Positions 1 to 19,386 of a stretch of DNA of 20,265 bases are shown here, in pieces. The translations under genes and the position numbers were made by a program. The first letter of the stretch is position 1. The number at the start of each line of letters is the position of its first letter. The stretch is from a virus, in IMG/VR virus record IMGVR_UViG_3300037189_026315, positions 1 through 20,265 of that record; one strand, 5' to 3'. The notes under the pieces are model-generated. The model was given only the letters and a program-made list of their open reading frames with translations, ran no database searches and was not told the DNA's origin.

Positions 1-3000
1 CTCACTGAAGAAAGTGGTACCAGCGCCGTCAAAATCTGTAGTGTCATTGTCAAACAACGAAATAAGATACTGATTACCACGACTGGCTCCCACCACCAAG
101 TTATTGGCAGTGTCGTCAATATTGAGTGCGCCGCCAAACTCAGCAAATTCAGTGGGTCGTGGACTTTGAATATTTTGTGTCCAAACAAATGTGTTGAATT
201 CAAGATCTTGCCACAATGTAGCAGTTGACCCTGGCAGTACTGTGAGTAAATTGTTCAATTCTGCGGCTTGACGATTCAACACACTGAGCGTGAGCACATT
301 GTTGATAACAGTAGCTGTGACATTGGGCACGGTGTTGTTGATCACCGCAGCCAATCCAGTCAAAGTGTTGTTGGGAGACAACGGCACAGACACCAATTGG
401 TCATTGATTCTAATGTCAGAACCAGCAGTGAGCGTGGTAGCGGATCTCTGTGCTGTGGTTATACCGTATACACGACTTTGGTTGACCCAACGTTCAACTT
501 GACCGCCTTTGTAAATCTGCGCACTGCTCTGTGGTTCGCCCACATACAAACTACAATTGTTGAGACAAATATCAACTGCTTGGCCAAAATTACAGAATTC
601 AGCCAGTTCATATTGTCCAACAGTTTGCAGAGTTGATATTTGATTGGTTTCTATTTCAATAATGTCACCAACATTGAAATCACGATCAATAGTGATGTTG
701 TTGCCTGCCACAGAGAAGGTATTGTTGGCACCAACCACAGCATTGTTTTCATTGATTAAAAATTGACCGTTGACTGTTACCGACACTGGTTCAGTCACTG
801 ATCCCTGCACAGTGTAAGTTGTAGTAGCAGCATTGCTCACAATGAATTTTTGCACCATGCGATCATAAACATAAACTATACCGGCCTGTGTTTGACTGCT
901 CACAGTGGCATAGGGAGCACCTATTAGGAACTGTCGACCATCTGTGGTAATGCTGACACTGGCACCAAATCTTGCATCGCTGTTGATCGAAACCGGTGGA
1001 GTCAGTGTTGCCACATACTCAAAATAGCCCTGAGCCGTGACTGTTATCACTGCACCACTGGCAGGCACAGTGACAAACGTCAATACTCCAGTACCACCGT
1101 TGAATGTATAATCAATGTTGGGACGTTGGATTACGTCATTTACCCGCACAGTAAATGCATAGATGTTGTCAGCGGTAAACAACAATGAGCCTATGTCAAA
1201 CGTCGAAGCCAGTGCTGGAGGAGTATATGCAATAGTAAAATCCAGCAGGGTGCCACCAGCACCCACACTGGTCACTGTGAGAGTGATGTTGTTGGCTGGC
1301 GAAGTGCCGCCACCAAAACTGGCAGCAGCAATGGTAATGGTGTTGCCTACGTTGTAGCCTGATCCCAGCGAAGTTGCGCCCACTGTGCCACGATCGGGAG
1401 AAAGTTGCCCAACTTCGCCGCGGACTCTGGTAATGGTAAATTCAGCACCGACCCCTGATCCCGAAGTGGCGGACTGTGTAACATCATAGTAGGTTTCACT
1501 GTCAAGCGGTGTAAGATTGCGTCGTTGGATACTGACCAAACTGCCAGCTGCTGGCGCTGTGGACAATGTCACCGTGTCAAAAGCACCATTGATGGTCCAC
1601 TGTGATCCTAGAGTTTGAACTTGTCCGTCCACAGACACTGTCAACTGTGTGGCTGCATCAATTTGTATTGCATCGCCAATGTCAAACTGTGTTTGAGTTC
1701 CTGATGCAATCACACGCACAAATTGGTCTTGCCAATCCACACGCCCATAGACATGTGCTTGATTGAGGCCCGGGGCGCCAACACACAGCCAACGTTCGTC
1801 CAAACTCATGGCCACGCTGGCACCAAACTCGCCTGTGCCTGCGCTGGCACTGGGTGTGGTGCCTGGTTGTGTCAACAGTTGCCACACAGTATAGGGGTTG
1901 ACACCGGGTAAACCCAGAGCTGGATCTCGATAGATCACTGCTGCATAACCAGTGTTGGCAACACTGGTGCTGCCGTTGCTGCCTGGTGCACCAGCAGCAG
2001 CCCAAGTTTGATTGCCAAAATCAACACTGGTACCAAATCCCCGTGTGCCAGTGACTTCTATAGTCAACAGTGCATCACCGTCGGGTAGTGGACTGATGGG
2101 AGTGTATTGATCACTGTAATTTTTTACATAGGTATACACTGCACCATTGGCCACACTTCCGCCACTGCTGAATGCTGGACTACCTACCAATGCTGCCAGT
2201 CTATTCTGTGCTTGTGTTACCGAAGTACCGTATTGTTCGCTGATGGTAAACTGCTCAGGCTGCAAGGTAGTGACGTCAGAAAATACTTCTTGCTTTTCCA
2301 ACACTGTCCAACGATCATTGCCGTTGTTGTCTACCCATACTTTGGCACCAGGATTTATGTTCAGTGTGTACGGCAAGTTGAGCACATCACTGGCCTGGGC
2401 CACACGCATGGTCTGCAACGTAAATCCAATGCCTGAACCATCGGCTTGTGTTTGTTGGCCACTAAAAGTATACGCAATATTCACAGTGTTGATGTTGGCC
2501 ACTGACAACACATCATATACACCGTTGATGTAGTCTGTGAAGAATCTAATGATCAGTTTGTCGCCAGCCACAAGGTCATGTGGCTGGCTGAATATCACTC
2601 GACTAGTGCCGTCAAGATTATCACAAACGTGCTGTATTTGCCCTGGCACCGATTGTGCTCGGAAGATCCCCCAGTCATAATCGTTGACCTTGGCGACCCA
2701 AATTGCTGTTCCCACAGCTATCTGATCGAAGTTGGCTGCCAAGCTGTCATTGTTGTCAAGGCTGAACACTGTGATGTCGGCGTCTTCAAGATTCACATAA
2801 CCAGCTGTGGGCAATCCAATGTCAGTGGGCAGCGTTGTGGTTGTGGGAAGAATATCAGGCGAGGTTATGGGATAGCTCTTGCGCCAGATTTCAGTCAACA
2901 AAACAGTTTGGTCGGCCTGACTGGGTTCTTGTGGATCAACCACTTGTACTGTACTGGGATTGGCGTCCAAGAGAGCACGATTCAATCTCATCTCAAAGAA

Positions 3001-6000
3001 GCTGCGATTGGCGTTGGCGCCATAGGTGGCACGCTGGACTGCCCAGTTGTCGTAGATGTCATAGTCAGCGGCTTCTTTGCCAAGGTTGGCTTGGCTAAAC
3101 AACTCGGCTGCCAACACTGTGCCTTTGCTGCCCAAGAATTGACGATACACGTTGACTTGACTGACGTCATTGAGGTTGAGCGCTGCTAGATACTGTCGTG
3201 GGCGGAAGCCAATTAGTCCATAGCTCAAGAGATCGTTGTCAACTTCAATATTGGCTGTGTTGATGTTGTAGCTATTGATCAACTGATTGGCCTTGTTGGC
3301 CAAGTTGGGCAGCAAGCCTAGTTCAATTTGACTGTAATCACTCTGTGTCCAGTCGTTGAAATTGAATGTGGTGCTGGGCTGTACAATCTTGAGTGCTGAC
3401 CAGAACACGTTCTTGTAGCGAACAATTTCACCTTTGCTGTAAGTGCGCAGACCAGTCCACTCTTCAACGTTGTCTTGATTGAGAATAAATCCTGGTGCGT
3501 TGACACTGCCATCCCAGTCGGTGCTGGTGACAGCCACAAGATTTAGTCGGCTTTGGCGAACTCCAGTCACGGGTTGATAAATCAAGTCACCAAACACACT
3601 TTGATTGTCAAGCACAATCATGTGTTCGTAAGTGGTGAATTTGAGATCAACATAGTTCAAGGTCTGGCCGCTGAGTGGTTGTGCTTGGAATTCGTAACCG
3701 TTGCGCACAATGTTGAGGTTGCGTGTGTTGAGTTCACGACGGTTTTGATCCAGCACAAGGTTTTCTATGGTCTGTGCTTGAATGCTGTCAACTTGTCCTT
3801 GAGTGCTGATCAATTTCAACCCATCAGATGTGGGGTTGAGGTTGATTAGCGCATTGTCATCCCAGCCTTGAATACTCCAATACAAAAACTCTGTGGCCAT
3901 ACGGTTCCAGTCCATGACGTAACCATTGGCTATGTTTTCAAACTTCATGCCTTGGCGGGTCAAAAGTTGTCCGTAGCTCAACAAGAAATCGCACACTGCT
4001 GCACGATCTGAGAAGATAAAACCATAGGGCACTTGTACCACTGTGTTGGTATAGACTGTGGGCACTTGAACTGACGCACCAGGTATGGCAATGGTTTGTA
4101 GCACGCCAGTGGTGCGGCTTTGCAAGATACTGAAATAAGGTTTGATGGTGCTGTAGCCATACACAGCATAGCCACCTGGAACTTGTTGCACCACTACACT
4201 GCTGTAGTTTACACTGCCGTAGGGTTGATTTTTGTACAGCAACAGTGCATAGCTTTCGTCGGGAATCAGCAGTGCACTGTTGGTAGAATTTGGACTGGAT
4301 TTTTCAGTGTAGATCTTGATGTATTGCTTGTCAGAAAACGACGCCATGCGGTAGACAAGACGCACGTCAAGATTCTGCAATGCCACGGTGAGATCTTCAG
4401 TGCTGTCTAGACCACTCTGGCGATTAAAATCTACAATCCAGTCAATGTAACTGGCTTTGCTGACTCCGTTGCCATAAACTTCAACTCCGTTGGCATCCAA
4501 ACGGTAGCGATTATTGTAGAGATATTGCTGGTATTCTAAGTTATAGCGATAGAGATCACGGTCAGCAAACAATGCGTAAAATTTGGCCGGGCGTGTCAAC
4601 GCCAGCAGTCGCATCACAGCAAATGGGTAGCTTGAGCTGTTCCACCAAGCAGCTTCAGTGGGACTGCCATCACCAAGGCTCCAACTCTTGCGGAAAGTAG
4701 TGGAGTCAAAATTGCCCATGACCGAGAGATACGGGCTCAGCAGCGCACCTTCGCTGCCAGTGGGAATAACTTTGGTTAGGCCAGGTCGGGCAAATTGTGG
4801 TAGGAAATATGCACCAGCAGGATCGTCAACTTTGCCTAGCTCTAGGTCATCCCACAACACAAGGTTGTCAGCAGTGTATGGTGCTGTGCCATAGCGTGTT
4901 TCCCACCAAGTGGGCTTTTCACTGAATCCCAGCATCTCCCAAGGTGTGATTTGGGGCTGTTCAGTGTCGTAGAAAAAGCGATTGATGCCACGCCAGGCGC
5001 CCAGCAACGGGCCATTGTCTAACTTGTTGCGACTGCTGCTGTAGTTAAATGTAAACTCGTTGTTGGCGTTGTACACTTGGTCACGGTACTGTAACTTGTT
5101 CCAGTTAACCCAGCTGAGAAAGTCCACGCTGAGAATGTTGGTGACTTCTTGATAGTCGTAGCCCGTGTCACGGAACTGACCAGGCATGACATCATATACT
5201 GTGAGTGGTACTGGGTTGCCATCTAGTTTGAGGTTGTTGTAGATACGGCGCTCAAATTCCAACAGCACCTCGTCTCGAATGTCACCAAACGCCTTGGTAA
5301 AGCTGCCGTCATGTCCTATAATGCCCAGTTCAGTGCCATTAGTGGTTTTGCGTTCAACTATTTCAGGCAGCCATGCCGGATACAGACCCAATTTGGTAGG
5401 AGTGTTGGGCACAAAGCTACCATAAGTGGCTGCATATTCTTGCAGTGTGAGCACATCGCCTAGAGACAAATTCACCAAAACAGTGATGCGTGGGCCGTCA
5501 GTTGCCACCACATAGTCACGTCCACGAATCAGCAACACATTGTTGAGATACACATTCATGCCAAGATAGTTGGCTGACTCATAGTCATACACTTGCACTG
5601 TGTCAAAAGTGTCTGTGGTAATAAAACTCACAGTGTAAGTGGTATTGGAGTACACAGCACCAGCCGGAATCATGTCACTCCAGTAGAAAGGCTGACTGTC
5701 TATTTTGCCTTCCACTAGGTTCTGGATGGCTGTGTCTAGAATCTGCGACGGAGTTTCAAAATAAATGGTTTGCTGGGTAACTGAGTCCAGCACTTGTGCT
5801 TTGAACTTTTCATACTCACGACTGTTGAAACTCAAAGCACCAAAAATGTTGTACTGCTCGCTGCGCATGAAATAGCCAGCCAGGGTCAGTGGGGAGCTTT
5901 GCTGCAAGATCAACTGTCCGTAGGGCACAATATTGCCTAGATCTCGAGAGTTGTTGGGGCCGTTGATTTTTCCACTCAACCCATTTAAGTTTTGGCAAAT

Positions 6001-9000
6001 AGTTTCGTAGTGCTGACGTACTGTGCCCAACGTAAAGTTGGGACTGTTGCCATTGAGTGGGTTACTTTGCAAATTAACTGGTACTTGATAGAATGCCACA
6101 TTGCTGGTTTGATCACTCAGCACAGCCACTTCAATCACAGTGCCAGGAACATAGTCTTGACTCAAGGTAATGGTTGTGGTGTTGTCACCGCGCTCAATAC
6201 TGTATTGAGTAGGATCAACAAACTGAGTACCCACAAATAGTCTTACCGGGGGCACCACAGTGCCTTCGCTTACTCTCACATCTAGTTTGAGAATACGAGA
6301 TGAGAATTCAAATTTAAATTGTTGGCGTTCCAGTGTGGGGGTGGCCGCAGTCTGCCAACCCAACTGTCGTCGATACACTGTGCGTGTGCTGTATTCACGA
6401 ACTGATCCTGAACTGATGTCCTTGGTCACGCTGACGTTGTTGTCAACATAGAGAAATGTGTCAACATAGAGATTGTTGTCAAACACAATGTCGCCAACGT
6501 TGTCAATGTTGAGATACTCTAGGGGAATTTGCAAAATTGGATCTAGAATTCCTGTTTCTGCTTGAGCATAAGAAAACAACTTGCTGCCAGCAAATGTTGT
6601 GCTTTGATACACTGATTCGTCGCCAAAACTTACACCGTTGGGATCATACACATTGTACAGCGGAGCTTGTTGAACATTGGTTTTTTGCTGTGCCTGTTCC
6701 CACTCGCCGTTGTTGAACCAAAATGTCACACCTTTGAGAGTATCGCCATCAAGGCACACTGTACTTTGATCCGGCAATACTTCGCCATCAGATGCCAGCG
6801 TTAAATTGATAATGGGCTGTGCAATGAGTGGGGGTACAGTGTCAGGTGTGACAAAATTCACTGTCCAAATTTTGTTGCGCACGCTGGCATCTTCGTCAGC
6901 GGCAAAAATCACTCGCGATCCATCAACAAAGGTGTAGCCGTCCACAGCATAGCTGGTGCTGCCTTCAATGTTGCTGAAGGCGTCAGTTTCTTCAAAGTCA
7001 ATGATGTCAACTGGTTGCTTGCCTTGGGTGCCCATGTTCCATAGGCGCAGACCTGGGCGGAATTCAATGATGGGACGCTTGGCTCGTTTGAGATTGTCGT
7101 AAACCACAGGTACATTGTTGTAGCTGGCTGTGGCTTGAATCACATCAATGTGAAACCAACGATTGCTGCGAGCCCAGGCATTGAGGTCTGGGCTGGCGCG
7201 GTCAACTGTGAGGTAATCTAATTCTTCAGGTACAGGCAGACTGCTGTCATTTTGTTCTTGAACGTATGTTTCAGGCGTGACAAAATTTGTGACTGGCAAC
7301 AATTCAATCGCAGTGCCTACTCCGCTCACGTAGTATTGCTTGTCTTTGTATGATGCTGGCTCAATATCGCCACGAAACACTACCTTGAGTCCGTTGGTAA
7401 ATGTTACTCCATTGGTAGAGGTATAGTTTTTCTTGCCAATGACTTCTTCAATAAACAGTGTAGTTTCTTGGGTTTGTTCAATCAGTCTGATGCGGCCAAA
7501 AATTTCTGGGTCAATGGCATCTTGATACCACAAAGTATCAAGAATAGCTGTGAGTGGAGGAATCTGTTCAAAGCGTCCTTCAGCTGTTTTGTACCATTGA
7601 GTGTTGCTGTACTGATCTCCGTAGGCAATAGAAAACTTGTTCAAAGCCGGGATATCAGCTACTTTGTTCAGCACTATGTACTCTACGCCAGCAAAGTTTT
7701 GATATTGGATTTGATAAACTTGATAGCGATCTCCCACAGGAATATCTGTGACTTGACTGAATGGCAAACTATCAAAACTGCCAGGCAAGCCGTTGTTGGC
7801 TAAACTCTGTACCAAAGGATCAAACAGTGTGGTCACTTGCCAGCCGCCAGTTTCGGCGTCAACGTTAGGATCCGTGAACACAATGGTTCGACCGTTGAGA
7901 TTGGTGGTTCCGTCAATGCCATTGTATTCTAGCAAGAACTGCGCCACAGGCTGGTTGTTGACTTGATCAAACTTCAGTGTAGACAAAATATCCACAGAAC
8001 CAAAATTGTTCAAGGTATAGTAAAAATTCTGTGCAGTCTTGGATGGCACATTGAACGTGACTGTGCCTAGATCCTCACCGTTGTTGATCACACCAAACAC
8101 ATCTCGACTGCTGATGTTGGGGGTTGAAGGTATGACTCCTGACACGCCTGGATTGGTCTGAATCCAAAAACCTGGACCTGTGCCCGGTGTACCATCAACA
8201 ATCTCAATCACGCCCTGTTGCCCGCTCTGTGTTTCACTCACATAGTACAGAGTGTCTGGCGCATCTTGTGGCACCACAAAGGTAATCTGGCCAGTGTTGC
8301 TACCGTTGCGAGTAACACCGTTGTTGTAGGCATTGCCACGACCAGTCACAGGCTGAGTCTTGATCCAAAATGGATAAATGCCAGTGAGATTGAGGTTAAA
8401 AATGTAGGTATTGCCACGTTGCAAAGTCAACGTGGGATTGATTACGCCGTCAATGGTGTAGTTAAATGTGCCATTGTTGCGTACTCGATAGTTCACAGTG
8501 GTCTTGGTATTCTGTGCCACCTGGAATGTGTAGTTGCCGCCTCGCAAGAGATCAATAGTGGGATTCTCGCCTGGCACACCCGAGAATGTGTAAACTCCGT
8601 TTTCGCGTGTGACTTCAAAGTTGGCCTGGGACGGTATTGTGGTGGCCATGACTTCCACAACATCAGGGCCGTTGGGCATCCAGAAGTATTGATTGAAGTT
8701 TACAAAGGTGTCGTAATTGACAAACGGATCCCAACTGTAGAACTCGCTGACATACAGTCGGTCTGGTCTGTTGCCTTCACCGCCTTGATAACTCACAGCA
8801 TCGTTCATGCCTGGATAGGTCATGACGTCTCTCACTGTGTCAGTGTCGGGCTTGATAATGGCCACAGCGGGTTCAAGCTGATAATCAGCGCGAGTCTTGT
8901 CAATCTCTACCACATAACGATCATTGGGGTTGACGCCAGGACCTACTTGGCGGCCAATGTAGCCTTGAGTCTGCTTGAATCTTGGCTCTTGTACCAGCTG

Positions 9001-9084
9001 ATCTAGCGTGGCTGCCAAAAATTGACGGTTAGCATCGGTTTGAAAGATCTCGGGTAAAAAATCAACGGAACGTACTTGAGCCAT
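1..9084 (-). CDS. Giant multi-domain baseplate/adhesin-like structural protein (3' end beyond window)
   Basis: The frame stays open for 3028 codons from ATG at 9084 to the left edge, so the C-terminus is missing. The start lies 2 nt after the gp6 stop, with a GGAG 10 nt upstream. Visible in order (residues): an N-terminal block with the motif WDPFVNYDTFVNF (118-140); three related cupredoxin-like beta-sandwiches (about 165-365); small VNG-type beta modules (about 948-986, 1178-1216, 2480-2510, 2645-2685, 2768-2812); a Trp-rich core (1362-1399, PWEMLGFSEKPTWW); a carbohydrate-binding-like motif (1882-1912); a GSGYNVGNTITI glycine-rich motif (about 2574); and five FG-GAP-like repeats (2349-3001). 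No signal peptide, membrane segment or enzyme motif was seen. The position after gp6 is that of T4 gp7 (1032 residues), but I see no convincing gp7 similarity. Inference: outer baseplate or receptor-binding appendage, injected-enzyme role unlikely. The coding call is firm; the function is not. Confidence 0.9.
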   Translation of the reverse strand, partial: MAQVRSVDFLPEIFQTDANRQFLAATLDQLVQEPRFKQTQGYIGRQVGPGVNPNDRYVVEIDKTRADYQLEPAVAIIKPDTDTVRDVMTYPGMNDAVSYQGGEGNRPDRLYVSEFYSWDPFVNYDTFVNFNQYFWMPNGPDVVEVMATTIPSQANFEVTRENGVYTFSGVPGENPTIDLLRGGNYTFQVAQNTKTTVNYRVRNNGTFNYTIDGVINPTLTLQRGNTYIFNLNLTGIYPFWIKTQPVTGRGNAYNNGVTRNGSNTGQITFVVPQDAPDTLYYVSETQSGQQGVIEIVDGTPGTGPGFWIQTNPGVSGVIPSTPNISSRDVFGVINNGEDLGTVTFNVPSKTAQNFYYTLNNFGSVDILSTLKFDQVNNQPVAQFLLEYNGIDGTTNLNGRTIVFTDPNVDAETGGWQVTTLFDPLVQSLANNGLPGSFDSLPFSQVTDIPVGDRYQVYQIQYQNFAGVEYIVLNKVADIPALNKFSIAYGDQYSNTQWYKTAEGRFEQIPPLTAILDTLWYQDAIDPEIFGRIRLIEQTQETTLFIEEVIGKKNYTSTNGVTFTNGLKVVFRGDIEPASYKDKQYYVSGVGTAIELLPVTNFVTPETYVQEQNDSSLPVPEELDYLTVDRASPDLNAWARSNRWFHIDVIQATASYNNVPVVYDNLKRAKRPIIEFRPGLRLWNMGTQGKQPVDIIDFEETDAFSNIEGSTSYAVDGYTFVDGSRVIFAADEDASVRNKIWTVNFVTPDTVPPLIAQPIINLTLASDGEVLPDQSTVCLDGDTLKGVTFWFNNGEWEQAQQKTNVQQAPLYNVYDPNGVSFGDESVYQSTTFAGSKLFSYAQAETGILDPILQIPLEYLNIDNVGDIVFDNNLYVDTFLYVDNNVSVTKDISSGSVREYSTRTVYRRQLGWQTAATPTLERQQFKFEFSSRILKLDVRVSEGTVVPPVRLFVGTQFVDPTQYSIERGDNTTTITLSQDYVPGTVIEVAVLSDQTSNVAFYQVPVNLQSNPLNGNSPNFTLGTVRQHYETICQNLNGLSGKINGPNNSRDLGNIVPYGQLILQQSSPLTLAGYFMRSEQYNIFGALSFNSREYEKFKAQVLDSVTQQTIYFETPSQILDTAIQNLVEGKIDSQPFYWSDMIPAGAVYSNTTYTVSFITTDTFDTVQVYDYESANYLGMNVYLNNVLLIRGRDYVVATDGPRITVLVNLSLGDVLTLQEYAATYGSFVPNTPTKLGLYPAWLPEIVERKTTNGTELGIIGHDGSFTKAFGDIRDEVLLEFERRIYNNLKLDGNPVPLTVYDVMPGQFRDTGYDYQEVTNILSVDFLSWVNWNKLQYRDQVYNANNEFTFNYSSSRNKLDNGPLLGAWRGINRFFYDTEQPQITPWEMLGFSEKPTWWETRYGTAPYTADNLVLWDDLELGKVDDPAGAYFLPQFARPGLTKVIPTGSEGALLSPYLSVMGNFDSTTFRKSWSLGDGSPTEAAWWNSSSYPFAVMRLLALTRPAKFYALFADRDLYRYNLEYQQYLYNNRYRLDANGVEVYGNGVSKASYIDWIVDFNRQSGLDSTEDLTVALQNLDVRLVYRMASFSDKQYIKIYTEKSSPNSTNSALLIPDESYALLLYKNQPYGSVNYSSVVVQQVPGGYAVYGYSTIKPYFSILQSRTTGVLQTIAIPGASVQVPTVYTNTVVQVPYGFIFSDRAAVCDFLLSYGQLLTRQGMKFENIANGYVMDWNRMATEFLYWSIQGWDDNALINLNPTSDGLKLISTQGQVDSIQAQTIENLVLDQNRRELNTRNLNIVRNGYEFQAQPLSGQTLNYVDLKFTTYEHMIVLDNQSVFGDLIYQPVTGVRQSRLNLVAVTSTDWDGSVNAPGFILNQDNVEEWTGLRTYSKGEIVRYKNVFWSALKIVQPSTTFNFNDWTQSDYSQIELGLLPNLANKANQLINSYNINTANIEVDNDLLSYGLIGFRPRQYLAALNLNDVSQVNVYRQFLGSKGTVLAAELFSQANLGKEAADYDIYDNWAVQRATYGANANRSFFEMRLNRALLDANPSTVQVVDPQEPSQADQTVLLTEIWRKSYPITSPDILPTTTTLPTDIGLPTAGYVNLEDADITVFSLDNNDSLAANFDQIAVGTAIWVAKVNDYDWGIFRAQSVPGQIQHVCDNLDGTSRVIFSQPHDLVAGDKLIIRFFTDYINGVYDVLSVANINTVNIAYTFSGQQTQADGSGIGFTLQTMRVAQASDVLNLPYTLNINPGAKVWVDNNGNDRWTVLEKQEVFSDVTTLQPEQFTISEQYGTSVTQAQNRLAALVGSPAFSSGGSVANGAVYTYVKNYSDQYTPISPLPDGDALLTIEVTGTRGFGTSVDFGNQTWAAAGAPGSNGSTSVANTGYAAVIYRDPALGLPGVNPYTVWQLLTQPGTTPSASAGTGEFGASVAMSLDERWLCVGAPGLNQAHVYGRVDWQDQFVRVIASGTQTQFDIGDAIQIDAATQLTVSVDGQVQTLGSQWTINGAFDTVTLSTAPAAGSLVSIQRRNLTPLDSETYYDVTQSATSGSGVGAEFTITRVRGEVGQLSPDRGTVGATSLGSGYNVGNTITIAAASFGGGTSPANNITLTVTSVGAGGTLLDFTIAYTPPALASTFDIGSLLFTADNIYAFTVRVNDVIQRPNIDYTFNGGTGVLTFVTVPASGAVITVTAQGYFEYVATLTPPVSINSDARFGASVSITTDGRQFLIGAPYATVSSQTQAGIVYVYDRMVQKFIVSNAATTTYTVQGSVTEPVSVTVNGQFLINENNAVVGANNTFSVAGNNITIDRDFNVGDIIEIETNQISTLQTVGQYELAEFCNFGQAVDICLNNCSLYVGEPQSSAQIYKGGQVERWVNQSRVYGITTAQRSATTLTAGSDIRINDQLVSVPLSPNNTLTGLAAVINNTVPNVTATVINNVLTLSVLNRQAAELNNLLTVLPGSTATLWQDLEFNTFVWTQNIQSPRPTEFAEFGGALNIDDTANNLVVGASRGNQYLISLFDNDTTDFDGAGTTFFSE
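82..2040 (-). repeat. FG-GAP-like repeat region in giant protein
   Basis: Five FG-GAP-like units within residues 2349-3001: GFGTSV...AAAGAPG (1981-2040), EFGASV...LCVGAPG (1768-1830), RFGASV...FLIGAP (913-972), a degenerate NFGQAV...LYVGEP (532-600) and EFGGAL...LVVGAS (82-141). FG-GAP repeats form blades of integrin-type beta-propellers. Spacing is uneven (about 70, 286, 124 and 153 residues), with beta modules inserted between units. More units may lie beyond the left edge. Confidence 0.7.
3349..3441 (-). other. Carbohydrate-binding-like motif (CBM5/12 type) in giant protein
   Basis: Residues 1882-1912 follow the short pattern Y-x-x-G-E-x-V-x-Y-x-x-x-x-W-x-A ... D-W-T: YSKGEIVRYKNVFWSAL and later NFNDWT. 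This is the usual layout of CBM5/12-type modules found in chitinases and phage tail proteins. It is short, so the call is tentative. Confidence 0.4.
6441..6472 (-). repeat. 14-bp direct repeat inside giant gene
   Basis: TGTCAACATAGAGA (plus strand) occurs at 6441-6454 and 6459-6472, an 18-nt period, so the protein reads LYVDTF-LYVDNN. It is probably a small in-frame slippage duplication. Confidence 0.7.
8194..8442 (-). other. Cupredoxin-like domain in giant protein, copper ligands absent
   Basis: Residues 215-297. The pattern NPTLTLQRGNTYIFNLN, PFWIKT, GQITFVVPQDAPDTLYYV is that of cupredoxin-like modules frequent in structural proteins of aquatic phages. Positions that carry His, Cys, His and Met in copper-binding versions read Tyr237, Ser283, Gln286 and Gln289. 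Shorter relatives flank it (about 165-214 and 303-365). Confidence 0.6.
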
Positions 9085-12598: not shown

Positions 12599-12976
12599 TT
12601 ATACGTAGCTGGCTCTACGTTGTTCAAGATCAAAGAACAATGCCAAACGTTCAGCGTCGGTGCTGGGCAACACTTCTAGTTCTAACTCAATCAAGATACC
12701 ATTGAGCTGCGGATATATCTGTACGTCTGTGATCTGTATGCGTGGGTCTCCGCCGGCCACACGCTGCACTTCGTTTACAATGTTGGTACTGACTTGCTCC
12801 ACTTGGTTTTCAAACAAGAAGTCCCACAGCACTGTGCCATAGGCTGGTCGTCCTGGTAACTGCCCTTGACGAATGTTAAAGGCATTGAGTAAGTCTCGTT
12901 TGATCAATTCAAACCCGGTAAGGGTAAACTTTTTGAACTGCCCTTGAGTGTTGAAACCAATGAATGTTTGCGCCAT
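12599..12976 (-). CDS. 25: Baseplate wedge/sheath initiator gp25-like
   Basis: 125 residues; T4 gp25 is 132. The GPW/gp25 family pattern is clear: an N-terminal helix region (LIKRDLLNAFNIRQGQLPGR), then PAYGTVLWDFLFEN, a helix, GGDPRIQITDV, and two beta strands (about 90-105). The family's core Glu-Pro-Arg triad appears as Asp-Pro-Arg. In T4, gp25 forms the wedge core with gp6 and gp53 and starts sheath polymerisation. I chose the ATG at 12976 (MAQTFIGF) over an in-frame ATG at 13033, because the longer form would overlap the preceding gene by 47 nt and add a hydrophobic extension not typical of the family. With this start the gap to the upstream stop is 10 nt. No strong Shine-Dalgarno is visible. 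Confidence 0.9.
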   Translation of the reverse strand: MAQTFIGFNTQGQFKKFTLTGFELIKRDLLNAFNIRQGQLPGRPAYGTVLWDFLFENQVEQVSTNIVNEVQRVAGGDPRIQITDVQIYPQLNGILIELELEVLPSTDAERLALFFDLEQRRASYV

Positions 12977-12986
12977 ACAGTATTTA

Positions 12987-14309
12987 TTAGCCCAATAAAC
13001 GGCCAGCAGCACCAGTTGCTGCACCAATGGCACCGGTTACTGCGCCAAGGGCTCCTTTGGCCGCTGCTGTGGCGTTGTCTACTGCTGCTGTGGCCAATGC
13101 AGCAGGATTTGGTACTCCGCTCAATGACGACAGTGCGCCACTCAAGGCTGGTATAGAACTCAGTGTGGGCAAAGACCCCAATGAGCCGCTGAGACTGCTC
13201 ACCGCTGAACTCACCGCAGCAGCCACAGACGACGGTGACGGTGCAAAACTTGGTACTGGTATCTTGGCACTGCCCAGCACACGAGTGGTGGCTGCATTGA
13301 TACCCAGTCGATTCACAGAATCCACAACGGCTGTGGGAATTTCTTCAGCTTTGAAACTATCAGGTATCTTGGCATTGGCAAGGTTTACACCAAATTGGGC
13401 ATTTTTCAATTGTGACAACACTTTGCTGGGATCCGGCAGTGAACTCAATGCGCCCTTGGCCAAGTCGCTGAGGGCTCCAGCTTGTCCAGCCAAACTGGCT
13501 GATGCTAGCCCCAATCCAGCAGTGAGTGAAGAGGGCAATCCTCCCAAGCTGCCTGACAGCTTGGTTACTTGTTGCAAACCGTTGTTCATCAAGGTTTGTT
13601 GAATGTTGTTTTGTGCACCAGCATTGTTCAGCAAACTTCCTATGTTTGTGATTCCATCTTTGCCAGTAAATGCTGCTGGACTTTTGAGCACTGAACTCAA
13701 GCTACTGCCACTGTCTACCAGTGCACTCATGCCTGGTTTTAGTATACCAGCAGATTCTAGCTGCGATGCATTTAGAGCAAAACTGCCAGCACCAACATTG
13801 CTCAATACTGAAGACGCTTGGCCAGCTAGATTTTTTGCTGTGGCCAAGGCCGAAGTCACTTCTGATGTGGCCATGTTGGCAATGGGGCCCACTGCTGGTA
13901 TGCTCTTGGCAAAGTTGGCAATGTTGATTTCGCCTGCAAGAGGCGTACTGCCTGCTGCTGTGGCCACTGAACTTGCTAGACCTTTTACTGTGGCTGTGGC
14001 TGAAGCCAGCGCACCTGATGCCAATGCTCCCACTTGTCCCACAGCGCCAGTGATGCCAGCACCCAAGGCGCCCACACGACCACTCAAGGCCTGGCCCACT
14101 TGCGAAGTGGCTGCTGACAGTCCTTGCGCGGCTTGGGTAGCAGCACTGATCACTGCACCAGGTTTGATGCCAGCAAAAGCACCAACATCCAATTGTTTTT
14201 CAAAAATTTGCCGAGCTTGTTCTTGAGTAAGGCCGGCTGGACCTTTGACTTCAATAGTGCCAGCTGTGCCTGGCGGTGCACCAGGAATGGTAAAAGTAAA
14301 TGTAGACAT
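12987..14309 (-). CDS. Ala/Gly/Ser-rich baseplate-locus protein of unknown function
   Basis: 440 residues. I find no Cys, His, Trp or Tyr anywhere in the protein. The N-terminus (1-45) looks like a small beta domain plus helix, with GTIEVKGPAGLTQEQARQIF, a pattern I associate with short N-terminal modules of phage structural proteins. Residues about 46-125 and 330-440 are Ala/Gly/Ser-rich and helix-prone with GxxxG spacing, ending in GALGAVTGAIGAATGAAG. A more ordinary segment (about 178-245) contains ASQLESAGILKPG, FTGKDGI and NNAGAQNNIQQTL and may be a conserved small phage-tail domain. It starts in a TAATG overlap with the spike gene and ends 10 nt before gp25. Its place suggests a role at the spike/hub, perhaps inside the tube or in membrane contact, but this is inference. 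No T4 counterpart or PAAR tip motif was recognised. Confidence 0.85.
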   Translation of the reverse strand: MSTFTFTIPGAPPGTAGTIEVKGPAGLTQEQARQIFEKQLDVGAFAGIKPGAVISAATQAAQGLSAATSQVGQALSGRVGALGAGITGAVGQVGALASGALASATATVKGLASSVATAAGSTPLAGEINIANFAKSIPAVGPIANMATSEVTSALATAKNLAGQASSVLSNVGAGSFALNASQLESAGILKPGMSALVDSGSSLSSVLKSPAAFTGKDGITNIGSLLNNAGAQNNIQQTLMNNGLQQVTKLSGSLGGLPSSLTAGLGLASASLAGQAGALSDLAKGALSSLPDPSKVLSQLKNAQFGVNLANAKIPDSFKAEEIPTAVVDSVNRLGINAATTRVLGSAKIPVPSFAPSPSSVAAAVSSAVSSLSGSLGSLPTLSSIPALSGALSSLSGVPNPAALATAAVDNATAAAKGALGAVTGAIGAATGAAGRLLG

Positions 14310-15828: not shown

Positions 15829-18800
15829 TCAAGGGTCTGGTGGTGCGGGCTGATCTTGTGCTACTACCGGTGCTCCGGTTTGTCCCAGCTTGAGTGGGGC
15901 TCTAAAATTTATGCCGCCCAGCGTCAGGCCATTGCTGTTTGGCAGTTGTGGCGTGGTTTGTGGCAGCAAATCATAAGTGATACTGCCCAGTGTTCCTGGC
16001 ACAGTTGATGGCTGTGATACTGGTGACAGTGCGGGCAAGCGCAGTCCAATCTGGCCTGACAATTGCGGTTGAGCAAAACCTGTGCCAGACCCCACACGCT
16101 GATTACCAGCAGCCAGAGCACTGTTGGCAAATAATTCTGTGGCATCTTCGTCGTCGCCAAAACCCACGCCTGATTTGGGTACACCAGGCGATGATGGTGC
16201 TTTGTTGTTGGTGACATTGGGTTTGGGGAAAATGTACAAAGCCCCGTGCAGCACTTGTTCAAACTTGCCGCCACGAAACTCGCTCACACATCTAGTGGCT
16301 TGATAGATATAGCTTTGAGTGGGCTGGCGATCGCCAGCAGGCTTGGTAGCCTTGCTGTAGGGATCAGCCACACCAGTGGCCATGTTGTAGTCTTCAGGAC
16401 GTTGCCAGGCAATCTCAAACATGACCTGACGACTGTCAAAATTTATAGTTCCGTCTGGAAGAAACGGGCTGTAGCTCCAGGTCTTGGGATCAAGACCAAA
16501 CGCCTGACTGCCTTGTTGTATCCAGGCTGGATCACCAATGATGCGTACTTGACATTCACCCAAGCTGGAAGGATCATACAGATACTCTGCTGCCGACGCT
16601 TGAATTTCTTGGCCACTGCCGCCAGGTGCTTGTGGCGCTCCTGCACTGTTTTCTCGACTGCGCGGTGCATAGTTAAAGTAGGGTATGTGCAACATGCTGC
16701 TGGTAAACAGTTTGCGAATGTTGGCAGCATCGTTTTGTTTGGGATTGTCTCCACTCACTGTGATATGATAGAGATAGTTGAAGTTGGCAGTGTAGTCAAC
16801 TACTGACGTATTTTCGCCTGTGAACCAATACTTGTAGCTTTTGTGAAGGCCTTTGAATTTGGGGCGAGGGAAAAATCTTGAGAAGAAATTTGTAACTGAC
16901 ATCTTGCTCACAATGTACTTGATATTGTAGGCATAGTCGTTGCGCAGTTCGTCATATTGGCCTTGGCGCACTTCCATGGTGATCTGATACCAATTCATTT
17001 CTCCCACCAGGCGGTCCACATCACCGGGGTCGCTGAGGCCAGTGGTCACATCGTTTTTGCTCAAGGCCTGATTGTAGATATAGCTGCTGTTGCGTATGGC
17101 CAACTCAATGGTTTGGCTGATCTGTTGTCCAGCAGTGATGGCAAACAAGCGAGTGTCGTAGTCTGTATAGAGTTTTTCTTGTAGTTTTGAATCAGGATCT
17201 TGTGCCAAGGCCATGGGCACTTGTGTCTTGTCTTTGATCTGACCAGGAAGAATCAACTGTGCTGCGGCAATGTCCTCAGCACCAGCAGCAAATTCTATGT
17301 CATATGCATCAGCCACGCCATATACACCTTGCTTGACCAAATTTTGCATGTGTTCGTTGATGGCAGCCATAAGACCTTGTGGCACAGCACGTTTGTTGGG
17401 TGCTGTGTTGGCCTTGGCCGGCGCTGGACTGCCTGCTGGAGTAGCGCCAGAGGCAGTGCTACTCTGCCCCGGAGCAGCCGCGGCTGCTGTGGCTGCTTTG
17501 GCATCACCAGCCAACAGTTTGCCCACAGTGGTACTGGCCAGTTCAACATCAAATGGCACAGTGCCACGACGACTATTGAGTCCCACAATTTGCCCCACAG
17601 GGGCGCCCACAAAGTCATATGTGACCAGTTTGCTGCTGACACCAAAATTGATGTCTTGAATTAGGAATGGAATGTATTTTTCAATCACGGCGCCGCCGGG
17701 GCCACCAGCACGCACTGGTGACACTAGACTGCCCCCTGAATCATACCCATAGAATCTAATGGCCATGAGATACACACAACTCACATAGTTGACTTCGCCT
17801 GCAGAATTTTTTGGTGCAAAATCTTGCACAGCTTGATGCAGTCGATCAATCAAGGTAATTCCATTGGGCTCAATCACTGTGAATTTGATTTCGCTGACCA
17901 TGTGTGCGGCTGTGGTAACTTTGCCTGGCAAAGCGTTGTCTATTGTGACGCTGTCAATGTAGAAGTCTAGATCAAATGCAGGATTGCGACCAGCGTTGGG
18001 GCCGCTAGCGTTGGCTTTGTTGTAGGCTGATCCTTGAAATCCGCCTTGGTTTACTGGAGCGCCACCGCTCTGGAACAATAATTGGTAACCATTGATGTTG
18101 GCTCGTCTTGACGCTACCATTTGGTTGTACTGCTCATTGGTCACCAGGTAAACTGACGCAGACCACGTGTAACTGGCATAGAGATCCAAGGCGTTGGGCT
18201 GTGGTGTGACTTGATCGTCATTGCCCGCAGCATTGACCGTGGCCTGAGCTGTGGTGGTGCTGGAGTTGGCTGCATCGTCATTGGTGGGCGTGCCTGGATT
18301 GGTGGGTGCAGTAGTGGGACCAAATCTAGTAGGACCAAACGCTTCAGCATCGCTTCTAGCTGCTTCTTCCGCGGCTATAGCAGCATCCTCGGCTGCCAAA
18401 ACTCCAGTAGGATCCTGTGGCCCACGAGACAATCTATCAAACACTGACACGTCGTCATCACCAAAGCCTGGCGCTGGCCTTGGGCCTGTGCTGACTTGAT
18501 CTTGTCCGCCAGTAGCCTGCGTATTTGTGGTTGTTCGAACAGGATCATCAGTGCCACGGTCAACATCGCCTGTGGCTGATGTGGACGTTGGAGTAGCAGT
18601 GGTGGGTGTAGTGGTAGCTGGCGGAGTGACAATGCGTCCATCAGACGTAATCTTTTGAGTGGATGGGCCATCTTCATTGACCACTTGCTGACCAGCTGAC
18701 TTGACTGGCTCAGGCGGTGTAGGACCAAATGTGGTGGGGCCAAATGCTTCAGCATCGCTCTGTGCTGCTGCTTCTGCAGCTGAAACGCCTGCAGGCGGCA

Positions 18801-19083
18801 GTGTTAGCGGCGCAGTTGAGCTGGTCTCACTGGCTGTGACTGTGGCTGTAGCGGCGTAGCTGAAACGCTCTGGTACATTACGTCTGTTGAATCCAGGCTG
18901 TCCTGGTTCTTTGTTGCTAATGATTTTAACATTTACTGTCAAAGGACCAAACGTTGTTTTGCTCCCCCCGCCAAAGTAGGCTAGAGCCTGAGCACGACCC
19001 TGTGCAACTGCCGCAGCTTCAGCAGCTTCGGCTGTGGCGGCAGTAACAGTATTGACAAATTTTTCAACTGGACTAACGGCCAT
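15829..19083 (-). CDS. Large baseplate hub-like protein with disordered N-terminal region
   Basis: 1084 residues. Residues 1-295 are Ala/Pro/Thr/Asp-rich low complexity. They include a duplicated SDAEAFGPTxFGPT motif (109-122 and 244-257), each preceded by an Ala/Glu-rich helix-like stretch, and a Thr/Pro run (about 153-172). An ordered part begins at about 298 (LDLYASYTWSASVYLV) and runs to about 510. A second Ala/Pro linker (about 525-565) precedes further ordered sequence (about 566-815), a 20-residue Gly/Ala/Pro linker and a domain with GECQVRIIGDPAWI (about 842-855), EIAWQRPEDYN and FRGGKFEQVLHGALYIFP (about 936-953). The C-terminus is Pro-rich. That last domain and the position directly before the spike gene suggest the role of gp27 (391 residues in T4), the hub that carries gp5. 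This is contextual, not a clear family match. The start lies 3 nt after the gp53 stop with only a weak GGGA upstream. Confidence 0.85.
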   Translation of the reverse strand: MAVSPVEKFVNTVTAATAEAAEAAAVAQGRAQALAYFGGGSKTTFGPLTVNVKIISNKEPGQPGFNRRNVPERFSYAATATVTASETSSTAPLTLPPAGVSAAEAAAQSDAEAFGPTTFGPTPPEPVKSAGQQVVNEDGPSTQKITSDGRIVTPPATTTPTTATPTSTSATGDVDRGTDDPVRTTTNTQATGGQDQVSTGPRPAPGFGDDDVSVFDRLSRGPQDPTGVLAAEDAAIAAEEAARSDAEAFGPTRFGPTTAPTNPGTPTNDDAANSSTTTAQATVNAAGNDDQVTPQPNALDLYASYTWSASVYLVTNEQYNQMVASRRANINGYQLLFQSGGAPVNQGGFQGSAYNKANASGPNAGRNPAFDLDFYIDSVTIDNALPGKVTTAAHMVSEIKFTVIEPNGITLIDRLHQAVQDFAPKNSAGEVNYVSCVYLMAIRFYGYDSGGSLVSPVRAGGPGGAVIEKYIPFLIQDINFGVSSKLVTYDFVGAPVGQIVGLNSRRGTVPFDVELASTTVGKLLAGDAKAATAAAAAPGQSSTASGATPAGSPAPAKANTAPNKRAVPQGLMAAINEHMQNLVKQGVYGVADAYDIEFAAGAEDIAAAQLILPGQIKDKTQVPMALAQDPDSKLQEKLYTDYDTRLFAITAGQQISQTIELAIRNSSYIYNQALSKNDVTTGLSDPGDVDRLVGEMNWYQITMEVRQGQYDELRNDYAYNIKYIVSKMSVTNFFSRFFPRPKFKGLHKSYKYWFTGENTSVVDYTANFNYLYHITVSGDNPKQNDAANIRKLFTSSMLHIPYFNYAPRSRENSAGAPQAPGGSGQEIQASAAEYLYDPSSLGECQVRIIGDPAWIQQGSQAFGLDPKTWSYSPFLPDGTINFDSRQVMFEIAWQRPEDYNMATGVADPYSKATKPAGDRQPTQSYIYQATRCVSEFRGGKFEQVLHGALYIFPKPNVTNNKAPSSPGVPKSGVGFGDDEDATELFANSALAAGNQRVGSGTGFAQPQLSGQIGLRLPALSPVSQPSTVPGTLGSITYDLLPQTTPQLPNSNGLTLGGINFRAPLKLGQTGAPVVAQDQPAPPDP
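18313..18354 (-). repeat. Coding repeat, copy 2: SDAEAFGPTRFGPT in hub-like protein
   Basis: Residues 244-257 of the hub-like protein, one substitution from copy 1 and preceded by the related AEEAAR. A looser third relative (TTFGPL) lies near residues 43-48. Confidence 0.8.
18718..18759 (-). repeat. Coding repeat, copy 1: SDAEAFGPTTFGPT in hub-like protein
   Basis: Residues 109-122 of the hub-like protein. The preceding Ala/Glu-rich stretch (AEAAAQ) is also shared with copy 2. Codons differ between the copies, so the duplication is not recent or has been diversified. Confidence 0.8.
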
Positions 19084-19086
19084 GGT

Positions 19087-19386
19087 TTAGAATCCCAGTG
19101 TGCTGCGCAAGGTAGACAACTTGGGCAAGAATATGGTTCGTCCCACAGCAAAGTCCAAGGGCGGTGCTGTGAGTGTGTTGGGGTTGCGCTGATAGAACAC
19201 CCACCACAGTGTGGGCGTGCCGTAGAGGTCATAGGCCAACATGTCGGGCCTGTACTGGTAAGTGAGATTGATCTCAAACGACAAGTCATCATCCTCTTTG
19301 GGAATGACACGGTTTTCCATCACATCAAGATAGAACTGTGTGACCGGAGTGTTGTAATAAGGACTGGTGGTATCGTACGTGGCCAT
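19087..19386 (-). CDS. 53: Short baseplate wedge protein gp53-like
   Basis: 99 residues; T4 gp53 is 196. The segment RPDMLAYDLYGTPTLWWVF (about 46-64) matches the T4 gp53 core around PEELANAIYGNPQLYWVL: a helix, then YG-x-P-x-L-x-W. It is followed by PPLDFAVGRTIFLPKLSTL, which resembles the LysM-like end of small baseplate proteins. In T4, gp53 clamps gp6, gp7 and gp25 in the wedge. Here it would be the minimal version of that fold. Translation starts in a TAATG overlap with the preceding gene and has a GGGAGG 9 nt upstream, the best ribosome binding site in the window. It ends 3 nt before the hub-like gene. Confidence 0.8.
   Translation of the reverse strand: MATYDTTSPYYNTPVTQFYLDVMENRVIPKEDDDLSFEINLTYQYRPDMLAYDLYGTPTLWWVFYQRNPNTLTAPPLDFAVGRTIFLPKLSTLRSTLGF

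Follow-up and report, generated by a model that had tools for sequence, protein, structure and literature searches.

A giant reading frame directly after gp6 in a metagenomic viral contig: a probable wedge protein at the gp7 position of a jumbo myovirus baseplate

In T4 and in cyanophages, the slot after gp6 is held by gp7. In the virus record considered here, the same place in the gp25-gp6-gp7 order is occupied by a frame of 3028 codons, which raises the question of whether so large a protein is the equivalent of gp7, a substitute for several wedge and fibre proteins, or a product that merely adjoins gp6. The window, that is, the whole stretch of 20,265 bp that was analysed, is the complete virus record, and therefore the true end of the giant frame lies off the contig. 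Its genes follow the order gp53-(1084 aa)-gp5-(440 aa)-gp25-gp6-giant (Table 1). We consider the giant, with a probability of roughly 0.75, to be the wedge protein at the gp7 position in the baseplate of a jumbo myovirus akin to RaK2, PA5oct and Atu_ph07, cut by the contig edge.

Table 1. Positions of the giant, its predicted modules and the neighbouring baseplate genes in the window.
Feature	Residues or size	Coordinates	Strand	Basis
Probable giant gp7-slot wedge protein	1-3028	1..9084	-	ORF; phrog_10938; 3' part off contig
Conserved N-terminal block, LPEIFQTDANRQFLAATLDQLVQ helix	1-150	8635..9084	-	common to Atu_ph07, Phosso, PA5oct, RaK2 and CBB
Cupredoxin-like domain	~175-300	8185..8562	-	phrog_677 C-terminal domain, E=6e-15; Foldseek, rusticyanin
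Conserved core, first half	540-1190	5515..7467	-	common to distant jumbo phages; AF2
Conserved core, second half	1205-1690	4015..5472	-	AF2; alignment of 90 sequences
CBM5/12-like module	1872-1930	3295..3471	-	Pfam CBM_5_12, E=2.8e-4, under curated cut-off
Putative gp7-type core signature (RQYLAAL...VNVYRQFLGSKGTVLAAELF)	1927-2012	3049..3306	-	hhalign against gp7 family
FG-GAP beta-propeller-like region with inserted beta modules	2270-3028	1..2277	-	Pfam FG-GAP_2; repeats
gp6 baseplate wedge protein	1153 aa	9087..12548	-	phrog_10646, E=1e-286; phrog_219, E=7e-25
gp25 baseplate wedge protein		12599..12976	-	Pfam GPW_gp25; phrog_43
gp5-like hub/spike protein	502 aa	14309..15817	-	phrog_13211, E=3e-41
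gp53 wedge protein		19087..19386	-	phrog_7145, E=8e-23

The initial annotation had described an open frame of at least 3028 aa directly after gp6, and the ORF listing, the junction and the alignments of relatives all bear this out. The frame starts with ATG, is stop-free up to the contig edge and begins two bases after the gp6 stop (junction sequence ATCTAAACATGGCT); as a chance event, 3,028 uninterrupted codons, at about (61/64)^3028, are impossible. The closest relatives align with it from residue 1 to about residue 3027 at 45-70% identity and without frame breaks. The giant lies wholly within the contig in 50 of 80 near relatives from IMG/VR; the frame is intact in 48 of these, at 4,733-5,340 aa, most of them ending in '..LQ[ED][TS].T..ARFL..', whereas in the other two (L011 and L064) one frameshift interrupts it, probably owing to assembly or read errors. 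Since the intact relatives have this length, the window lacks about the last third of the protein, or some 1,700-2,300 residues, and the full product, as judged from related sequences, is about 5,000 residues long, with its first ~3,000 in the window. The initial annotation put the protein at three times the length of gp7 or more; the intact relatives are about five times as long as T4 gp7 (1032 aa).

The giant falls in phrog_10938, annotated as a virion structural protein (E=5e-214, more exactly 5.2e-214; the PHROGs profile has 3324 positions), and shares blastp blocks with its counterparts in RaK2, CBB, PA5oct, Atu_ph07 and Phosso. The same gp6-giant order is found in Agrobacterium phage Atu_ph07 (gp180, 4449 aa), Sinorhizobium phage Phosso (XYS97451, 4555 aa), Pseudomonas phage PA5oct (gp355, 3857 aa), Klebsiella phage RaK2 (F403_gp465, 3326 aa) and Pectobacterium phage CBB (CBB_236, 3340 aa). 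Orthologues are known to be present in virions: mass spectrometry of CBB virions gave 21 peptides of CBB_236 (PMC5259590), that of phAPEC6 gave 17 peptides of gp245, with a predicted mass of 381.88 kDa (PMC7247149), where its location directly behind gp6 (gp244) and its mass identify it as the giant, and PA5oct gp355 is annotated as a virion protein by mass spectrometry. PHROGs also places phrog_10938 under 'head and packaging', a label for which no experimental support was found. Scanning IMG/VR viral contigs with the cores of PA5oct, Atu_ph07 or RaK2 singly returned almost nothing, whereas a mixed alignment detected at least 589 stretches encoding relatives of the giant. Six further relatives (L198-L203) come from contigs assigned to bacterial metagenome bins (Neomarinimicrobiota, Endomicrobia, Puniceicoccaceae and Gammaproteobacteria), which may be phages binned together with bacteria and do not prove a host. 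The novelty is thus lower than the initial annotation implied: the family is already known and has members identified in virions, and the window giant adds a longer, new member to this abundant family.

The gp6 protein is nearly twice as long as T4 gp6 (660 aa), an enlargement common to its relatives (phrog_10646, 1142 positions). Between gp25 and the gp5-like gene lies a 440-aa Ala/Ser/Gly-rich protein without a family match (12987-14309, minus strand). The gp5-like hub protein has OB-fold and DUF2345-type matches and no lysozyme domain match, and the gp5 genes of RaK2 and CBB are longer and annotated as lysozymes. The 1084-aa protein (15829-19083, minus strand; phrog_11190) has a Pro/Thr/Ala-rich N-terminal third with 'SDAEAFGPTxFGPT'-type repeats, compared with about 660-790 aa for its counterparts in isolated phages. 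Beyond the stop of the giant, relatives (L089, positions 40001-60000 of contig G001) carry genes of 201 aa (phrog_11259) and 595 aa, which resemble PA5oct gp357 and gp358 in size and order and precede radical-SAM genes; in Atu_ph07 and Phosso, too, radical-SAM genes lie a few kb past the giant.

A block map was built from the coverage of one relative, the L007 protein, by 83 distant relatives. Residues ~1-250, 550-2250 and 2900-3700 of L007 are widely conserved, and 300-500, 2300-2900 and 3900-4790 are clade-specific. The window protein, which carries an additional ~100 residues (2528-2627) relative to L007, contains the first two conserved blocks and ends where the third begins. Leu10 and Pro11 of the N-terminal block are invariant in alignment A3. 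The cupredoxin-like domain, which matches rusticyanin in Foldseek (E=2.5e-4, TMt to 0.50) and by eye lacks the usual copper-ligand motif, is an accessory module of the first arm. Residues 1-1190, including the first half of the core, were modelled with AF2 at a mean pLDDT of 79.1 (m7fbd1a910937), and residues 1205-2080 at 82.6 (m4ab29424b80f), so that both models are of fair confidence. The centre of the second half of the core is covered in all 83 distant relatives, with a mean column identity of 33% over 90 sequences; it has no PDB match in Foldseek at E<=0.001, and its matches in BFVD are uncharacterised phage proteins and the Atu_ph07 structural protein. For the CBM5/12-like module, a weak match in Pfam, small-domain hits in Foldseek were to chitin-binding domains and to phage baseplate and fibre proteins. 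In the C-terminal part of the window, the clade-specific FG-GAP region is supported by a Pfam FG-GAP_2 match over the cut-off (E=9e-10) and by six FG-like repeat starts (2285, 2350, 2420, 2706, 2833 and 2983) between which beta modules are inserted. No direct match of the giant sequence to a solved structure was obtained. The proposal of a beta-rich mosaic is thus well founded in the cupredoxin-like, FG-GAP and CBM5/12-like modules and in the mostly-beta stretches of the AlphaFold models.

Whether such a mosaic is a gp7 equivalent depends on its core. In phages with a T4-type gp7 core, a helix is followed by an 'FY..KGT..S' motif. Profiles of this core, made from phage phiM19 and IMG/VR relatives with and without cyanophages, matched T4 gp7 at P=4e-13 to 4e-15, and matched giant residues 1927-2012 ('..RQYLAALNLNDVSQVNVYRQFLGSKGTVLAAELF..') at P=2.5e-5 to 5.9e-5, in an alignment that brings the KGT motifs into register. 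The next best value among sliding windows over giant residues 1-2080 was P=0.0082, and all 62 reversed controls gave P of 0.077 or higher, so that the KGT match is about 300-fold better than other giant windows and the reversed controls; with correction for the windows tried, P is about 0.002. The likeness is distant, and the evidence good but not decisive. The match extends over some 50-75 columns at an hhalign probability of 51-75%, and its K and G do not vary across 90 aligned family members. Against T4 gp7 alone, the match is not recovered (P 0.11-0.15). No T4 gp7, gpI or TssG was recognised among the PDB hits listed by Foldseek for both AF2 models; in the isolated model, confidence over the KGT region is moderate to low (about 36-77), possibly because partner chains were missing. 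Pfam Gp7_5th and Gp7_6th (domains V and VI of T4 gp7) have no match in the giant, and in six members of the family, the KGT region gave neither a Pfam gp7 nor a Tail_P2_I hit. Cyanophage gp7 likewise has no Gp7_5th or Gp7_6th match, and these lineage-specific domains therefore do not define the wider gp7 class. The N-terminal helix was also compared with that of gp7; its position is consistent, and its likeness was not used as evidence because the profile comparison (P 0.1-0.3) is not significant. A separate T4-type gp7 was found in none of Atu_ph07, PA5oct, RaK2, Phosso, CBB and two large IMG/VR contigs. On the grounds of the KGT core match, the operon position and the lack of another gp7 in these genomes, the giant is taken as the gp7 equivalent, a reasonable assignment; the gp7 slot proposed earlier is thus upheld by the position after gp6, and profile comparison adds support for a gp7-type core.

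Other explanations of the frame have different merits. The giant could be a tail-fibre, whisker or adhesin protein that happens to adjoin gp6 and has no gp7 equivalence, since its carbohydrate-binding-like, cupredoxin-like and FG-GAP modules would suit fibres or adhesins, and elaborate fibres and whiskers occur in RaK2 (PMC3622015) and CBB (PMC5259590); however, the gp6-giant order is kept across very divergent phages, and together with the KGT match and the failure to detect any other gp7, this makes such a reading improbable. Still less credence is given to a polyprotein whose cleavage at assembly would yield several wedge and fibre proteins. Virion protein processing occurs in some jumbo phages, and the size and modular build of the giant would agree with it, but published peptide tables give the giant as one product. 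An assembly or sequencing artefact, in the form of a missed stop or fused genes, might be suspected in a metagenomic contig when single frameshifts affect the same gene of L011 and L064, yet it is refuted by the uninterrupted frames of 48 of the 50 complete relatives and of five isolate genomes, and can be practically dismissed.

The initial annotation also proposed that one polypeptide replaces gp7, gp8, gp10 and gp11 of T4. The giant is large enough for this and has several conserved blocks, and, besides gp7, T4-type gp8 (phrog_977) and gp11 (phrog_963) genes went undetected in the five complete relatives and two large IMG/VR contigs. The same models detect the genes of T4 and V09, and those for gp7 and gp8 also pick up the divergent P-SSM2 genes, so that these searches are moderately sensitive; nevertheless, diverged genes escape sequence searches. 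Against replacement, hhalign found no T4-type gp8, gp9, gp10, gp11 or gp12 domains inside the giant (probabilities <1%), and a cyanophage gp8 profile reached a probability of at most 5%. PA5oct retains a separate virion protein with the gp10 C-terminal domain, a few genes downstream of its giant. A separate gp8 persists in cyanophages whose gp7 is just as large, and hence the size of gp7 does not imply loss of gp8. The part of the proposal that stands is the gp7-type core; gp8, gp10 and gp11 domains were not found inside the giant, and among the separate genes looked for in relatives, T4-type gp7, gp8 and gp11 were missing while a gp10 C-terminal domain was present in PA5oct. Replacement of all four proteins is thus unlikely; for the functions of gp8 and gp11 it is possible, and for gp10, at least in PA5oct, less likely. 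The gp10 N-terminal motif was also seen in other ORFs of four related contigs, three of these ORFs being over 1000 aa; those of contigs G001, G003 and G004 (e.g. G003:138046-138150) are about 1050-2600 aa long, match phrog_958 positions 2-36 and possibly represent fibres docking in the gp10 manner. Matches to the gp8-family profile phrog_438 inside giants were rejected as gp8 domains, as they cover an accessory repeat at profile positions 186-301, outside the part shared with T4 gp8 (3-86).

If the giant is the gp7-position wedge protein, a role in the baseplate can be proposed. The (TssF)2-TssG complex of the T6SS is homologous to (gp6)2-gp7 (PMC6300606). By inference from T4 gp7, P2 gpI and T6SS TssG, the KGT core would be the third chain of a heterotrimer with two copies of gp6, the expected partner of the giant, and six copies per virion, one for each of six wedges, would dock on gp6 via this core. 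The arm before the core (residues 1-1900) would project outwards and strengthen the wedge rim, as would the arm after it, of about 2,700 residues in relatives, and the beta modules of the arms (cupredoxin-like, CBM5/12-like and FG-GAP propeller) could serve in fibre docking and host glycan contact; a carbohydrate-binding role, drawn from the sub-threshold CBM5/12 match, is speculative. It is a rather doubtful further step that the ~5,000-residue protein makes up most of each wedge, with a gp7-type core, two arms doing the jobs of gp7, gp8 and gp11, and a core of unseen fold; if true, a giant of ~0.5 MDa at six copies would contribute ~3 MDa per virion.

Hundreds of environmental phages share the conserved jumbo-phage core (about residues 540-2055), and its best-modelled half has no solved-structure match; it is therefore a clear target for structural studies of the differences between jumbo-phage baseplates and that of T4. 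In huge phages, proteins of up to 7,694 aa, some of them tentatively annotated as structural, have been described (PMC7162821), and proteins of such size, including giant gp7-slot proteins, are already known in phages. The gp7 position appears to be a recurrent growth point, from 503 aa in Mendera and 1032 in T4 through 3300-4600 in jumbo isolates and 4700-5300 in the clade of the window up to ~7100 in cyanophages, and to have expanded repeatedly and independently, with accessory modules joined to one side of the core, the other, or both sides.

Compared with its relatives in phrog_10938 (RaK2, CBB, phAPEC6, PA5oct, Atu_ph07 and Phosso), the window giant is likewise of giant size and has the same place directly after gp6 and the same N-terminal, core and second conserved blocks, but differs in sequence (~22-38% identity in shared blocks); its clade is also distinguished by additional residues 300-500, by a propeller region peculiar to it and by an extended C-terminus. 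With the T4 gp7/gpI/TssG class it shares the operon position after gp6 and, by profile comparison, the 'FY..KGT' core signature; unlike T4 gp7, it is about five times longer, is similar only in 50-75 columns and has neither Gp7_5th nor Gp7_6th. Cyanophage relatives of the jumbo-family conserved core were not found by tblastn. The giant gp7 proteins of cyanophages (P-SSM2, 5195 aa; SynMITS9220M01, 4067 aa; the P-SSM7 slot protein is ~7124 aa from annotated coordinates) are alike in their slot, size and modular build, and a small 'IdgErImY..LsGLlRGtaGTa' module is common to the giant and cyanophage gp7 (P=1.5e-6). In cyanophage gp7, however, the KGT core lies at the N-terminus and is followed by one long C-terminal arm, whereas the jumbo family has two arms.
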